Shown here piece after piece: positions 20,865 to 26,854 of a DNA stretch of 32,658 bases. A program made the translations under genes and the position numbers. The first letter of the stretch is position 1. Each line of letters begins with the position of its first letter. The notes below the pieces were generated by a model. It ran no database searches and was not told where the DNA came from. It saw nothing but the letters and a program-made list of their open reading frames with translations. Source of the stretch: Parvularia atlantis (taxonomy: Eukaryota; Opisthokonta; Rotosphaerida); contig CALSCO010000645.1 of assembly GCA_943704415.1 (NCBI GenBank), forward strand, positions 1-32,658, written 5' to 3'.

Positions 20865-21829
20865 ATGAGCGCGTGGGACGCACAGCGCTACATGCACTTC
20901 CTCAACGAGCGGACCCAGGCGGCCGTCGATCTCGTGCGCCGCGTCGAGCTGCCGGACGACGACGTGCGCCGCGTGGCCGACCTCGGCTGCGGGCCCGGCA
21001 ACAGCACCGAGGTGATCGCGGCGCGCTGGCCCGCGCTTGGCCACGCGCCCGGCACGCTGCTGTGCGGCGTCGACAGCTCGGAGACGATGCTGGCCGAGGC
21101 CCGGGTGCGCGCCAGTGGTGGCAGCTTGGCCACGATGCGGGGGGGGGGGGGGGGTGTTGACACGGGAACGGCAGACGCGCCATCCGCACTTCCGCTTCGC
21201 GCACCAGGACGTGTCCGACTTTTCGCTGGCCGGGCTCGCGGCGGCGCTTGGTGATGCGGCGGCGGGCGCGGCGCCGCTCGATCTGATCGTGTCCAACGCG
21301 ACGCACCACTGGATCGCCCAGCACGAGCGCGTCTTCCCGCAGCTGATGGGCTGCCTGCGGCCCGGTGGCGTGCTCGCGGTGCAGATGCCGCGCAACTTTG
21401 ACGCGCCGAGCCACCGCCTGCTGCACACGGTCGCGCTGGACGAGCGCTGGCGCGAGCGGCTGGCGGGCGTGCGCAAGGACCGCGACGTCAGCCCCGTGCA
21501 CGCGCCGGGCGACTACTACGACTGGCTGACGCCGCTGTCGTCGCGCGTGACGCTGTGGGAGGTGCGCGTCTTGTGCACGCCGCTTAACTCTTTGACGAAG
21601 CCGCGCCGCGCAGACTGAGTACGTCCATGTGCTCAACAGCGCCGACGATGTGGGCGAGTTTGTGCGCACGACCGGCGCGCGCCCGTTCCTGGACGCACTC
21701 GAGCCCGCGCAGCAGCCGCAGTTCCTGGCCGAGTACAAGCGGCTGCTGGCGCAGGCGTACCGGCCGCAGCGCGACGGGTGCGTGCTGTTCCCGTTCCGGC
21801 GCTTCTTCCTGCTGGCCGTGCGCAAGTGA
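20865..21829 (+). CDS. tam: Trans-aconitate methyltransferase (Tam type)
   Basis: Exons 20865-21104, 21175-21561 and 21614-21829 give 280 residues in frame. It matches bacterial Tam (252 aa) along its length: WDAQRYMHFLNERTQAA, the SAM-binding motif VADLGCGPGNST, SNATHHWI, LRPGGVLAVQMP, DYYDWLTP and the ending FFLLAVRK. Tam methylates trans-aconitate, an inhibitor by-product of the citric acid cycle, using S-adenosylmethionine. The protein looks soluble with no targeting signal. The close likeness to bacterial Tam, despite two normal introns, suggests either an old bacterial acquisition or a fungal-type Tmt1 relative; I cannot decide without a tree. Intron 1 (21105-21174) holds a 16-G run. 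Tail-to-tail with the next gene, 20 bp between stops. Confidence 0.93.
21139..21154. repeat. 16-nt poly-G run in intron 1 of the Tam gene
   Basis: An uninterrupted G run on the + (sense) strand lies inside intron 21105-21174, between the donor and the branch-like TTGAC. Confidence 0.95.
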
Positions 21830-21849: not shown

Positions 21850-23456
21850 TTACAACTCGTCGCGTCGTGCTGGGGCTGTCTGCCGTACAAACGCGACAGT
21901 GTGCGAGTGGAAGCGCACGAGCGGGCTGTCGCTGCGCCCGATCTGCAGCAGGCTCAGCTCGTCGAGGTCGCAGCGCTCGAAGCCGTCGCTGCGCCAGGGC
22001 GGCCTGCAATACGCGCGTGCGTCGGCGAGCAGCGTGTGCGCGAGCCGGGGGGGGGGGGGGGGGGGGGGGGGGACGCACATGGTCGTGCCCTTGGGCGTGC
22101 CCCACGTCTCCTTGGCGCGCCCGCTCACGCCGTAGTCCTTCTCGCCGATCAGGACGTACTCGCGCACGGACGACGTCGCACGCACGGCCGCGGTCCAGTC
22201 GTCGTCCTTGGACATCCACGACACGAGCACGAGCACGGGCCGGTGGTGCTTGAGCGCGGCGACGTGGTCGCGCTTGATGACCGGGAAGCTGCGAGCGCGT
22301 CAGACAGGTGCGGACGAGGCAGGCGTGCACGCACCGCAGGGTTGCGTCGCCGACATTGCCAGCAATGTCGGATGCGACGAACGTGAGCTGCACGCCGGCG
22401 AGGGCGGGCGCGGCGGTGACGGCTTGCGCGAGAAAGTGCGTGAGGCGCCCGTTGCCCGCGCCGATCTCGAGCACGGTGAGCGCGGCGCCGGGTGCGGCGT
22501 AGCGCTCGAGGCGGTGCGCGACGTAGCGCGCGAGGCCGGCCACGTACTCGCGCGTGAGCAGCTCGCAGACCTTCAGGTACCCGTTCGAGAAGTAGTAGAG
22601 CCACGCGGCGGGCGTGAGCAGGTCGAACGCGAGGCGCGCGGGCGGGACGCGCAGGGGCCGTAGCAGCACGGCCTCATCCAGCGCGTCGGGAGCGGCGGCC
22701 GCGGCGTCGAGCCACGGGAACGCGAGCGCGACGTCGGCGTGCGACGGCAGGCACGTCGTGTTGAGCAGGCAGCGCAGCGCAGCGAGGCGCTCGGGCGAGC
22801 CGGCATCGAGGTCCACGTCGGGTTCGAGGCGCAGGTACTCGGTCACGGCGGCGGGCGAGGGCAGCGCGGCCTCGGCGTCGCTCGGCCCTGGGTGCCGCTG
22901 CAGCTCGGTCTGCGCGTCGGCCAGCAGCGCGCGCAGCCGCGCGCCATTCTCCATGAACGCCGCCGTCGGCTGGCACCCGCGCACGCCCATCTGCGCGCCG
23001 GCCTCAGTGCAGCAGCAACGTGCGCGCGTACACCGCACCTCGGTCGAGATGAACGTGCGCGCGTGCCGCTCGCGCAGCCGCTCGAGCAGCGCTGGATCGG
23101 CGTCGACCGTCAGCTGCGGCACGTCCGGCGGCGGCGGGAACAGATTCTCGTGCGTCCCGCCCTGCTGCACGCACATCCACTGCGCCGTGCTCCGTGCGCG
23201 TGAGCTGGCCGCGCCGCGCACCGCGGGAACGCACGCTGAAGAGCGCGTCGTAGCGGTCCTTGACGATGCGCTGCGCCATCAGGCCCAGGCGTGCGCCGTC
23301 GTACGCGCGCAGCAGCGGTGTGTCACCGCGCTCGACTGCCAGCACGTCGCGCACGAGCACCGCCACAGCGCGCTCGGCAGGCACCGCGCCCGCAGACGCA
23401 GCAGCCGTCGCGAGCAGGACGAGGACGAGGCAGACGGCGAGGAGCCGCGTTCCCAT
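21850..23456 (-). CDS. Putative ER-lumenal SAM-dependent methyltransferase
   Basis: Exons 23456-23235, 23179-23039, 22990-22335, 22288-22079 and 22003-21850 give 460 residues in frame. Residues 1-24 are a textbook signal peptide (MGTRLLAVCLVLVLLATAAA then SAGA). The C-terminus is RRDEL followed by TAA, an RDEL variant of the KDEL/HDEL ER-retrieval signal. A class I methyltransferase core begins about residue 295 with motif I VLEIGAGNGRLTHFL, followed by TFVASDIAGN, VLVLVSWMSKDDDW, VREYVLIGEKDYGV and a final strand RFHSHTVAFVRQ. The last segments resemble an uncharacterised methyltransferase family known to me only by pattern. The N-terminal 270 residues are unassigned. Substrate and the source of lumenal SAM are unknown. 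Intron 22004-22078 contains a 26-nt homopolymer directly after the donor. Confidence 0.8.
22047..22072. repeat. 26-nt poly-G (poly-C in the sense of the gene) in an intron
   Basis: The longest homopolymer in the window. In the sense of the methyltransferase gene it is a run of C that begins immediately after the six-base donor GTGCGT of intron 22004-22078. Splicing across it keeps the frame (GTTM then PPWRSDG). Confidence 0.95.
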
Positions 23457-24004
23457 GAAGCTGATTGGCTGCGCGTTTTTTTTTTTCCGTGACTATGGGG
23501 CGCGATCAGCAAGGCCGCGGTCTCGGCGCGCTTCGCTGGCCACGACACGTGGGACGGGCGGACGCAGGAAGTTAGGCGAACAAGAACGGAACTTAGGGCT
23601 CTTGGCGAAGGCTCAGACCCCTTCCCCCGCCCCCTGTCGCACCAAGTTTTTCCGTCTCTCACGCCGCCTGCTCTTCGTCCCCCTCCTCCGCCCGCGTTGC
23701 GGCGCAGCGCCCACCCCCTCGCGCGCGCTGCCTCGTCCCCCCCACTCGCGCGCGCGTGTAGCCCCAGGCCCTACTGCGCCGCGCCTCGCTTTCTTTGGGT
23801 GGTGAGCGCGGGCTCTCGCGAACCGCGTGACACGTGCCGCTCTTTCCCCTGTCGCCGCAACCATCGCGGGCACGTCGCACGCGCGCGCGCGCCGTGGCCA
23901 TCGCCTTCCGCCCGTCTCGCCGCGCCCTGCGCTGACCGCGGCGTGTGTGGCGCAGACGGGCAACAGTCACACCACCACCACCACCACCCCGCCGCGCGCG
24001 CCGC
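23457..24004. promoter_or_regulatory. Divergent intergenic region, ER methyltransferase / White Collar-like gene
   Basis: This 548-bp interval has no supported exon. CTGATTGG at 23461-23468 (CCAATCAG for the minus gene) lies five bases before the methyltransferase ATG. A 10-T run (23477-23486) follows. The part nearer the + gene is C/T-rich, as expected for a long leader or core promoter. A leader intron is possible but not demonstrable. Confidence 0.5.
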
Positions 24005-26854
24005 ATGAGCCAAGTCAGCCCCGTCGCCGCAGCCCTCGCCGGCGACGCGCCCGCGCCCGCGCCCCCCGCGCGCGGCATGTTCCTGCAGACGCCGCTCGGG
24101 CAGGACACGTTCGCGCGGGTGCGCCGTGCGCCGTGCGCCGTGCGCCGTGGGGGGGGGGGGCGCGCTCAAAACTCCGCCTGTCGCCCTGCCGCACGCACGC
24201 AGTACAACAACGACGACAACGTGGTCCAGTGGGAGCTGTTCCAGTCGTCGCCGCTGCGCAAGGACCGGCTGACGGTGCACTTCATGTTGGACATGCAGTA
24301 CCGCGTGCGTGTGCTGTCCTTCGTTCCCTCGCGCGCGTGCGCGCGCGCTCACGGCAAAACGCAGATTATCCGCGCCACGCCCAACGTGAACAACCTCACG
24401 GGCTTCGCGCAGGACCTGCTGACGGCCGTCTCGCCGCACTTTGTCTCGTTCGCGCACCCAAAGGACGTCGCGAGCATGCGCCAGAACCTTTTTGAGGTGT
24501 GTTCCTGGCGGGCTGCGTTGGCGCGGGCGGGGTGGCAGTCTGGGTCGTGAGCTGCGCATGCATCGGTGGCGGGCTGCGTCGGCGTGTTTGTGGCAGGCTG
24601 GGGTATCGGTCACGGCCGTCTCGCGCACTCACGCGCGCACGCCCCCGCACGAAACAGGCCGCCTCCACGGGGCCCGCTGCCGGCTACATCTTCCAGTCGC
24701 GCAACCAGATCGCGCAGCGGCACCGCATCGCGACCGCGTTCGGCCGCTACACCTGGGTCGAGACCGTGTACGTGCGCAGCGGCATTGGGGAGCCGTGCCT
24801 GCTGCTGCTCTGCAGCCCCATCGACGTGAGCTCGCTCGGCGCACCCGCCCGCCTGCCAACTGACGCCATTCGCTCAGCCGCCAGCCGAGGACGAGGAGTG
24901 GATGTGCGAAGGCGAACTCATGGCGCGCTCGTTCAACCTCAACATCGACCTGTCTCGCTCGGTCGTGTGGGTGTCGCCGGCGTGGTGCGTGCGCGCGCGC
25001 GGCATCTGGGGAAAATTTTCCCCCGACCCTCCGCCCTGACCGCGCCGCGCAGCACCATCCTCGGCTTCAACTGCCTGCAGCTGTTGTGGGTGGACGTGCT
25101 GGACATCGTGCACCCGCGCGACCGCGAGCGCTTCAAGCACGCCGTCGACTCGCGTGCGTCAGTGCGCAGGCCGCGCAGTGCGCGCGCGTGCTCATCCCGC
25201 GGCGCAGTCAAGGACGTCATCGGAACGCGAATCTCGATGATCGTCGACATCGTGCATGGCCAGGGCGTCTACGTCCGCTGCTCGGTCCTGATGGAGTCGG
25301 GCGTGCTGATGAGCGACGACCAGAAGCACCCGTGGCGGTTCATCCTGGCCAACTGCTCGGTCCTGGTGCGTTTTCCTCCCAATGCATGAGCTGCGCGCTG
25401 ACGACTCGGTGCTGCAGGACGCGCCCATGCCCGAGCTGTCCGCGGCCGAGGACACTGGCGCGGGGAGACCGACGGGCTTCGAGTACGACGCCAGCGGCTC
25501 AATGTATCAGACGCCACCGCCGTTCGGCACACAGCCGTACTATCATCAGCACCAGCACCAGCACCAGCACCAGCAGCCAGTTGATGTCGCGTTCGCGCCC
25601 GACCTCCCGGCGAGTCAGTACGCCTCGTACACGTCGCTGCCCGACGTGCTCGACACTGCCGATGTGCGTATCCGCTTCGCGCACCTTCTGAGCCATTGAC
25701 ACACACTCCTGCGCGCTGCAGCAGGACGTGCAGATGTACAACTGGCGCCTCATACCGCGCAACCTCAAGGTTGACCCGGCCGAGTACGAGAACCAGCTGG
25801 CGCAGCGCCTGGGCAACGCCGAGCCACACATGGAGCTGCTGGACGACGGTGCGCCAGCCGCGGCCGCCGCAGGGTTGGGTGGCAGCTGACGGTCACCCGG
25901 CCGCGCAGGGCTGCTCATTGCCGAGGAGATCCGCTCGATCTGCCAGACCTCGCCCACGCTTGCGCACCAGCCGCTGTGCGGGTCCGTGAGCATGCCGCCC
26001 TCGGCCACCCTGCTCGGCACGCCGACCAGCGCGAGCTCGAGCACCAGCCCGGGCACCGCTGGCACTGGCCACTCGCTGCTGCACGCGGCCTCGGCAGACG
26101 ACCTCAGCGGCGGCTTCACCGGGTTTCAGGACAGCGGTGCGGCCCCTCTTTGCGCGCCTCGCCAGCCTGGCTTACCAGCGTCGCAGTCTCGTACAGCACC
26201 ATGCCGCCGCAGCAGCTGCCCGGGCCCGCCGTTGCGACCCTCGCGCGGCGGGCCAGCAGCTCCAGCCACGACGCCACGGGCACGGTCAAAGTGCGCAAAC
26301 CCAAGGCGACGCCGGGCCACGCGCGGTCAAACAGCGTGCCGGCGCTCGTGCCGGCGGACGTGGTCGAGGACGGGCTGCTGAAGAAGGACAAGGTTGGCAC
26401 GCACGCGCGCGAACGCCGTGAGAATTGGCCGCTGACGCCGCTCCTTCCGCAGAAAAAGAGCGTCTATCGCCCCTCGCGCCGCCGCGACAAGGTCTGCGAG
26501 ATCTGCGGCCGGAACGAGTCGCCCGAGTGGCGCCGCGGGCCAACGGGCCACAACTCGTGCGTTGCGCCCCCCACTGGTACACCCGTCGCGCTCATTGTAC
26601 GGTCTTGCCGCAGCCTGTGTAACGCCTGCGGCATCCGCTTCGCCAAGTTTGTCAAGTCTGGCTGCCCGCCCGAGCAGGCCATCGCGCGCATGCTGCGGCG
26701 CGCCGAGTCGGACGACAGCCTCGTCACGCGGCAGCAGCTGACCGTGGCCGACTACATCATGTCGCCGCGCACGGACGACGCGACGCCGCATCCGCAGCTC
26801 GGGCCTTTTACGCCGATGATGTCGCCACCGCAGCAGCAGCAGAGCAGCGCCTGA
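24005..26854 (+). CDS. White Collar-2-like PAS/GATA transcription factor
   Basis: Thirteen exons (24005-24118, 24203-24304, 24365-24496, 24658-24825, 24878-24984, 25053-25153, 25208-25365, 25418-25663, 25725-25848, 25909-26136, 26187-26392, 26453-26556, 26614-26854) give 676 residues in frame. PAS1 spans about residues 58-170 (LTVHFMLDMQYRIIRATPN, LTGFAQDLL, FAHPKD). PAS2 spans about 195-290 (VVWVSPACTILGFN, DIVHPRDRERF). A His/Gln repeat follows near residue 330. The GATA zinc finger (CEIC, ESPEWRRGPTG, LCNACGIRFAKF) starts near residue 577. In fungi this architecture defines WC-2, the nuclear partner of the blue-light receptor WC-1. The flavin-binding LOV motif is absent, so it is not itself a photoreceptor. 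Intron 1 has a repeated donor motif and a G run, intron 3 is unusually long (161 nt), and the acceptor at 25721-25724 is a NAGNAG. Confidence 0.88.
24119..24146 (+). repeat. Tandem GTGCGCC x4 overlapping a 5' splice site
   Basis: Four perfect head-to-tail copies of the heptamer GTGCGCC start exactly at the donor of intron 1 (24119-24202) of the White Collar-like gene. The heptamer contains the window's consensus donor GTGCGC, so four candidate 5' splice sites lie in a row. Confidence 0.9.
24149..24160 (+). repeat. 12-nt poly-G run in intron 1 of the White Collar-like gene
   Basis: An uninterrupted G run follows the tandem donor copies inside the same 84-nt intron. Confidence 0.9.

Follow-up and report, generated by a model that had tools for sequence, protein, structure and literature searches.

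The window, by which we mean the whole stretch of 32,658 nucleotides analysed here, carries on its minus strand a five-exon gene (21850..23456) that, from splice reconstruction and alignment with a paralogue, is predicted to encode a lumenal methyltransferase of 460 residues. Exon 1 (23235..23456) supplies residues 1-74 and exon 2 spans 23039..23179; exon 3 (22335..22990) encodes a middle domain and the first half of the SAM fold. Exon 4 (22079..22288) contains the stretches RPVLVLVSWMS and SVREYVLIGE, which are common to the paralogue and in part to bacterial relatives, and exon 5 (21850..22003) ends in RDEL and the stop codon. The introns placed by the splice reconstruction are of 55 nt (intron 1, 23234-23180), 48 nt (intron 2, 23038-22991), 46 nt (intron 3, 22334-22289) and 75 nt (intron 4, 22004..22078, with a long C run), and all four start with GTGCG and end with AG. 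The spliced protein starts MGTRLLAVCLVLVLLATAAASAGAVP and ends APARRDEL, followed by TAA. An earlier note on this DNA had described a spliced product of 460 residues with a signal peptide at its start and RDEL before its stop, and our reconstruction reproduced it; the class I SAM-binding motif that it had named is present at 22439..22474 as VLEIGAGNGRLT, within the region of the Pfam matches. No ATG precedes the one at 23456 in its open frame, which begins just 12 codons before it, at 23492. At the other end of the gene, the paralogue aligns nearly to the stop codon, up to 10 residues before it, and thus fixes the 3' reading frame.

Two further features flank this gene. A second class I methyltransferase, with a Methyltransf_25 match just above the cut-off, lies on the plus strand at 20866-21829, tail to tail with the RDEL gene and with 20 bases between the two stop codons. 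Divergent from the RDEL gene, a PAS-like/GATA region occupies about 24000-26851 on the plus strand; within 24496-26851, a GATA zinc finger frame stands beside a PAS-like frame (PAS below cut-off), and we take the two to be white-collar-like. GC content along the window is 65-73%. Long G runs occur on the plus strand at 21139-21154, 22047-22072 and 24149-24160, one of them within intron 4 of the methyltransferase gene, and are either intronic repeats or assembly artefacts.

We searched the source assembly (16.25 Mb, 616 contigs) with the C-terminal part of the window protein and found one other gene, on contig C141; a query with exon 3 found the same gene. Our model of this paralogue has seven exons and 441 residues, and its identity to the window protein is 41% overall and 56% in the SAM core. 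In our models the first two introns of the two genes correspond: intron 1 follows ALFS in the window gene and ALFQ in the paralogue, and intron 2 follows FISTE and FIATQ, respectively, each in phase 0. The paralogue model needs GC-AG introns at 2 of its 6 sites (15348 and 15535), and its exact splice sites are less certain. Each protein has a single N-glycosylation sequon, NTT, at the same place, which in the window protein is N198 (22754..22762, minus strand), between C195 and C201.

To which enzyme family do these proteins belong? Pfam gave only sub-threshold class I methyltransferase matches round motif I (best E 0.013, at 16.7 bits where the cut-off is 30), the best NCBIfam match scored 18.1 bits against a cut-off of 212, and no Pfam family matched the paralogue at E values up to 1. 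We also considered, and rejected, the NanM type of sugar O-methyltransferase, as the NCBIfam match spans only 35 residues round motif I, at 15.6 bits against a cut-off of 44. Sequence searches of the PDB returned chance-level matches only. The window protein nevertheless carries the class I motifs, namely motif I and a post-beta-2 acidic residue in FVASDI. One review takes motif I, together with an acidic residue in the post-I position, as a mark of the seven-beta-strand fold (PMC13027442). Both paralogues keep motif I as E-x-G-A-G-x-G, the VASD aspartate that follows beta 2 and an SW pair. Together, these features indicate that the window protein most likely belongs to a class I (seven-beta-strand) SAM methyltransferase family without a name, with predicted activity.

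The relatives that we found outside the assembly are plasmid-borne bacterial proteins of about 310 residues, which match the window protein over about 100 residues of the SAM fold. With tblastn, two Azospirillum records reached E 6e-4 and a Niallia record 2e-2, and hhalign gave probabilities of 96.6% and 95.9% against bacterial relatives. The two that we aligned share with the window protein motif I (with one Gly-to-Ala change), the post-beta-2 aspartate, the SW pair and a V-x-x-Y-x-x-I-G strand. These proteins, from Azospirillum, Serratia, Citrobacter and Niallia plasmids, are annotated as 'SAM-dependent methyltransferase' or 'hypothetical protein', and the two that we scanned matched no Pfam family above cut-off. 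The homology is remote and lies within the SAM fold; the N-terminal part of the bacterial proteins is different and, unlike the window protein, they have no signal peptide (two translated) and no xDEL. The paralogue's core gave no match against the plasmids, and no relative was found in phages. Likewise, tblastn found none in viral contigs (three alignments) or in prokaryote contigs (two alignments), each scan using only two short peptide patterns, by which distant relatives can be missed.

Plasmids often carry metal resistance. Near-full-length bacterial copies occur in five records, and in all four that we read, genes for metal transport or resistance lie no more than a few kilobases from the copy. 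The Azospirillum copy has copper-resistance and P-type ATPase genes as neighbours. The Serratia and Citrobacter copies, which score alike, each adjoin a P-type ATPase gene and genes for a cation transporter and a divalent metal transporter, and near the Citrobacter copy there are pco and ArsR-type genes as well; the Niallia copy neighbours ArsR-family and CDF genes. Partial matches in Pontibacillus and Hydrogenophaga have no metal-gene neighbours. We treat this neighbourhood as a lead only, the homology to the window protein being too remote to carry function.

Conservation of the motifs bears on whether the fold is active. The protein could be lumenal yet catalytically inactive, serving as a chaperone, scaffold or binding protein. 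It scores far below the Pfam thresholds, and overall identity between the two paralogues is only 41%. Moreover, the histidine methyltransferase METTL9, to which we return below, is reported to work mostly independently of catalysis during neural development in vertebrates (PMC12313917), a conclusion that a later review doubts (PMC13027442). However, identity between the paralogues rises to 56% in the core; both retain motif I, the VASD aspartate and the SW pair; and the aspartate, the SW pair and motif I, with its one Gly-to-Ala change, are found in the two aligned bacterial relatives as well. We regard an inactive fold as quite unlikely.

The N-terminus of the window protein, MGTRLLAVCLVLVLLATAAASAGA (23385..23456, minus strand, approximate cleavage site), has a 12-residue hydropathy maximum of 3.46. 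To judge it against chance, we used the 351 ATGs of the window (both strands, each followed by at least 40 open codons), the methyltransferase gene's own ATG being counted among them. Hydropathy over the first 30 residues was as high at only 1 of the 351, and 4 passed a crude signal-peptide rule of our own, which is not SignalP. A single basic residue lies before the hydrophobic core. Beyond the signal peptide we found no hydrophobic stretch of anchor length, and hydrophobic 19-residue windows lie only within residues 1-28. The paralogue, which starts MRPLPICVLLVACIAAAVDAAA, is signal-peptide-like too. With its own signal peptide and the same sequon, the paralogue suggests that the common ancestor of the two probably already entered the secretory pathway. 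We rejected the idea of an ordinary cytosolic enzyme whose start had been misplaced, since the ATG is the first in frame and the paralogue has a signal peptide too.

A hydrophobic start might instead be a mitochondrial presequence, or be fortuitous, leaving the enzyme cytosolic or mitochondrial like its bacterial relatives. Starts rich in Ala and Leu arise more easily in GC-rich DNA, and this genome is 70% GC; the two translated bacterial relatives begin without a hydrophobic segment. Against this reading stand the rarity of comparable starts in the window, whether judged by hydropathy or by the signal-peptide rule, the lone basic residue before the core, the signal peptide of a paralogue that has otherwise diverged, and the conservation of the single sequon. 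We therefore consider a start of this kind very unlikely, and prefer a signal peptide.

At its C-terminus, the window protein bears RDEL (21853..21864, minus strand) at the end of a ten-residue tail, QTAPARRDEL, which follows the last shared core residue; the paralogue has two residues there, IV, and stops 8 residues earlier without an xDEL. The earlier note proposed asking whether homologues conserve both signals: in the one paralogue, the signal peptide is kept and the xDEL is absent. Since the paralogue has no xDEL, retention does not look like a rule of the family; the RDEL tail appears specific to the window copy, and ER entry looks like a family trait. From the composition of both paralogues, the chance of a C-terminal [KRH]DEL is 6.4e-5. 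Among 5261 stop-ended frames (all six frames of the extracted loci of the source assembly, with overlapping frames counted), 2 terminate in x[D/E/N]EL, the methyltransferase gene and one frame of 19 residues. As a DNA pattern, [K/R/H/Q/N/S]-D-E-[L/F] plus a stop or W shows no excess across the genome, with 33 matches against 62 in the reversed control (16.25 Mb). Because the pattern lacks enrichment over the control, RDEL alone is weak evidence; it gains weight because a signal peptide stands at the other end of the same protein. The window protein thus has what is expected of an xDEL resident, an N-terminal signal peptide by our crude rule and RDEL directly before the stop. The further argument that the two signals lie on exons 1.6 kb apart adds little, as the start and the end of a gene lie apart in any case.

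Does this genome use such signals? The KDEL-receptor family PF00810 is present as two pieces on contig C490. Of the 33 pattern matches, for 30 of which loci were extracted with one further locus added later, 15 encode [KRH]DEL and a stop, the window gene among them. Pfam was run on 10 of the other 14 C-terminal frames, with frames longer than 170 residues entered as their last 170; two short frames (42 and 13 residues), a frame of low complexity and the later locus were left out. Among the scanned frames, HDEL ends a protein of the Hsp90 family that has an acidic tail and is presumably endoplasmin-like, glucosidase II beta (a PRKCSH_1 protein) and a PLA2G12-like protein that scores below cut-off (31.2 bits against 34). 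RDEL ends an EGF_CA protein, which we take to be CRELD-like, and an Amidohydro_3 protein (amidohydrolase). One TPR protein, which probably does not belong to the ER, ends in KDEL. The remaining four scanned frames comprise one with a weak, sub-threshold KIND match and three without a Pfam match. Among 24 matched Hsp70-family pieces, the ends of two genes were read and neither is xDEL, so that no BiP end was identified; a PDI-like gene is truncated by the end of its own contig, and a cyclophilin with a hydrophobic start has a C-terminus without xDEL.

These observations also bear on the possibility that the signal peptide is real but the RDEL is due to chance or too weak, in which case the protein would be secreted or vacuolar and act outside the ER, as the paralogue may. 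The paralogue, with a signal peptide and no xDEL, is consistent with such a fate, as is the lack of enrichment of the bare pattern. Yet the RDEL forms the extreme end of a short additional tail, its chance by composition is low, RDEL and HDEL end other proteins of ER-type families in this genome, and RDEL is bound by the mammalian receptor, according to the excerpt of PMC7561476. Escape from the ER is thus unlikely. The earlier note had proposed a lumenal methyltransferase, and its placement in the ER is supported by the signal peptide, the RDEL, the sequon, the paralogue, the receptor family and the other xDEL proteins. Predicted residence in the ER lumen is, at the level of sequence, well supported; we infer the actual localisation, catalysis, SAM import and substrate class.

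How does the window protein compare with known methyltransferases of the secretory pathway? In excerpts of PMC12313917, METTL9 is described as a histidine methyltransferase of that pathway, located in its early part, which enters the ER lumen via a signal peptide and is N-glycosylated; an earlier paper reports ER localisation of METTL9 independent of its signal peptide (PMC8571522). Both METTL9 and the window protein are soluble seven-beta-strand methyltransferases with an N-terminal signal peptide, predicted in the case of the window protein. They differ in that METTL9 is reported, again in excerpts of PMC12313917, to be without a KDEL-type signal, whereas the window protein ends in RDEL. We found a separate METTL9/DREV gene in the source assembly (C400:15875-16654; E 1.9e-39; PF05219 E 2.2e-42), whose closest solved chains are a DREV methyltransferase and a protein-L-histidine N-pros-methyltransferase. 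When the window family was compared with this protein, hhalign gave 9.5% over 18 columns of motif I. With its METTL9 gene separate and no DREV (PF05219) match in Pfam, the window gene was ruled out as a METTL9 orthologue. The assembly looks fungal to us, and PMC12269839 states that METTL9-like sequences are absent from fungi, a statement with which the C400 gene conflicts if the assembly is indeed fungal; an early-diverging fungal lineage would then be the obvious guess.

A second comparison is with NHMT (Aspergillus AN4663), a fungal N-terminal histidine methyltransferase of the ER that acts on secreted LPMOs and has, in excerpts of PMC10349129, seven predicted transmembrane segments and a soluble domain aligned to the spermidine-synthase-like domain of METTL13. 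NHMT is thus predicted to be anchored in the membrane, whereas the window protein has no membrane segment past its signal peptide; an NHMT-like enzyme was ruled out, as the N-terminal seven-transmembrane domain is missing. The third group comprises the plant Golgi polysaccharide methyltransferases (QUA2 and others), for which, according to the excerpt of PMC9946043, SAM is imported by MFS 5 carriers (GoSAMT). They use SAM in a lumen, as the window protein would, but they belong to the Golgi, whereas the window protein is predicted to be retained by RDEL, and a Pfam scan of the window protein gave no relation to any named plant methyltransferase family. In light of METTL9, NHMT and the plant Golgi enzymes, the earlier note's premise that soluble SAM methyltransferases do not reside in a lumen is out of date. 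Our searches of the open-licence literature turned up these three and no soluble methyltransferase bearing an xDEL. Lumenal methylation itself therefore has precedents; what would be novel, by that literature, is a soluble, xDEL-retained member of an unnamed family.

Our preferred reading, to which we give a probability of about 0.68, is that the window gene encodes a soluble class I methyltransferase that is imported into the ER, retrieved by RDEL and methylates secretory cargo with imported SAM. The protein would enter the ER co-translationally, its signal peptide would be cleaved, and it would probably receive one N-glycan, at N198. A receptor for RDEL/HDEL would retrieve it from the Golgi, and methyl groups would pass from lumenal SAM, imported from the cytosol, to secretory cargo. 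In our judgement, a protein side chain is somewhat more likely as the substrate than a glycan, though still at less than even odds, and a lipid or small molecule accounts for the rest. A bolder reading, which we put forward tentatively and at somewhat less than even odds, is that the pair represents an undescribed secretory-pathway methyltransferase family distinct from METTL9 and NHMT, with one member retained by RDEL and its sister passing onward; cargo would then be methylated at two points along the secretory route, both supplied by a pool of SAM in the lumen.

Few enzymes are known to methylate proteins or glycans within the secretory pathway, and the window gene may point to a little-explored methylation of exported molecules. 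A soluble enzyme with an ER retrieval signal would offer a clean handle on lumenal methylation, and a pair of paralogues with and without RDEL a natural comparison of retained and non-retained methylation.

Such an enzyme would depend on SAM in the lumen. A lumenal supply is plausible because METTL9 is reported to be in the lumen and to methylate ER-facing parts of SLC39A7, as stated in excerpts of PMC12313917 and PMC13027442. In the literature covered, the plant Golgi carrier is the only SAM carrier for lumenal methylation. We found a gene that matches Pfam MFS_5, in five pieces, on contig C113; from the name, we infer that Pfam MFS_5 is the plant 'MFS 5' carrier family. The presence of METTL9/DREV and MFS_5 genes in the same assembly likewise makes a lumenal SAM supply plausible. 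The MFS_5 gene is a candidate SAM carrier only and may well carry something else; the profile also matches 5 of 14 prokaryote controls, above cut-off in 1. Just upstream of this gene, at the start of its contig, lies a fragment (DESYTSKTC ... GRDINGARN) that we take to be TnpB/Fanzor-like.
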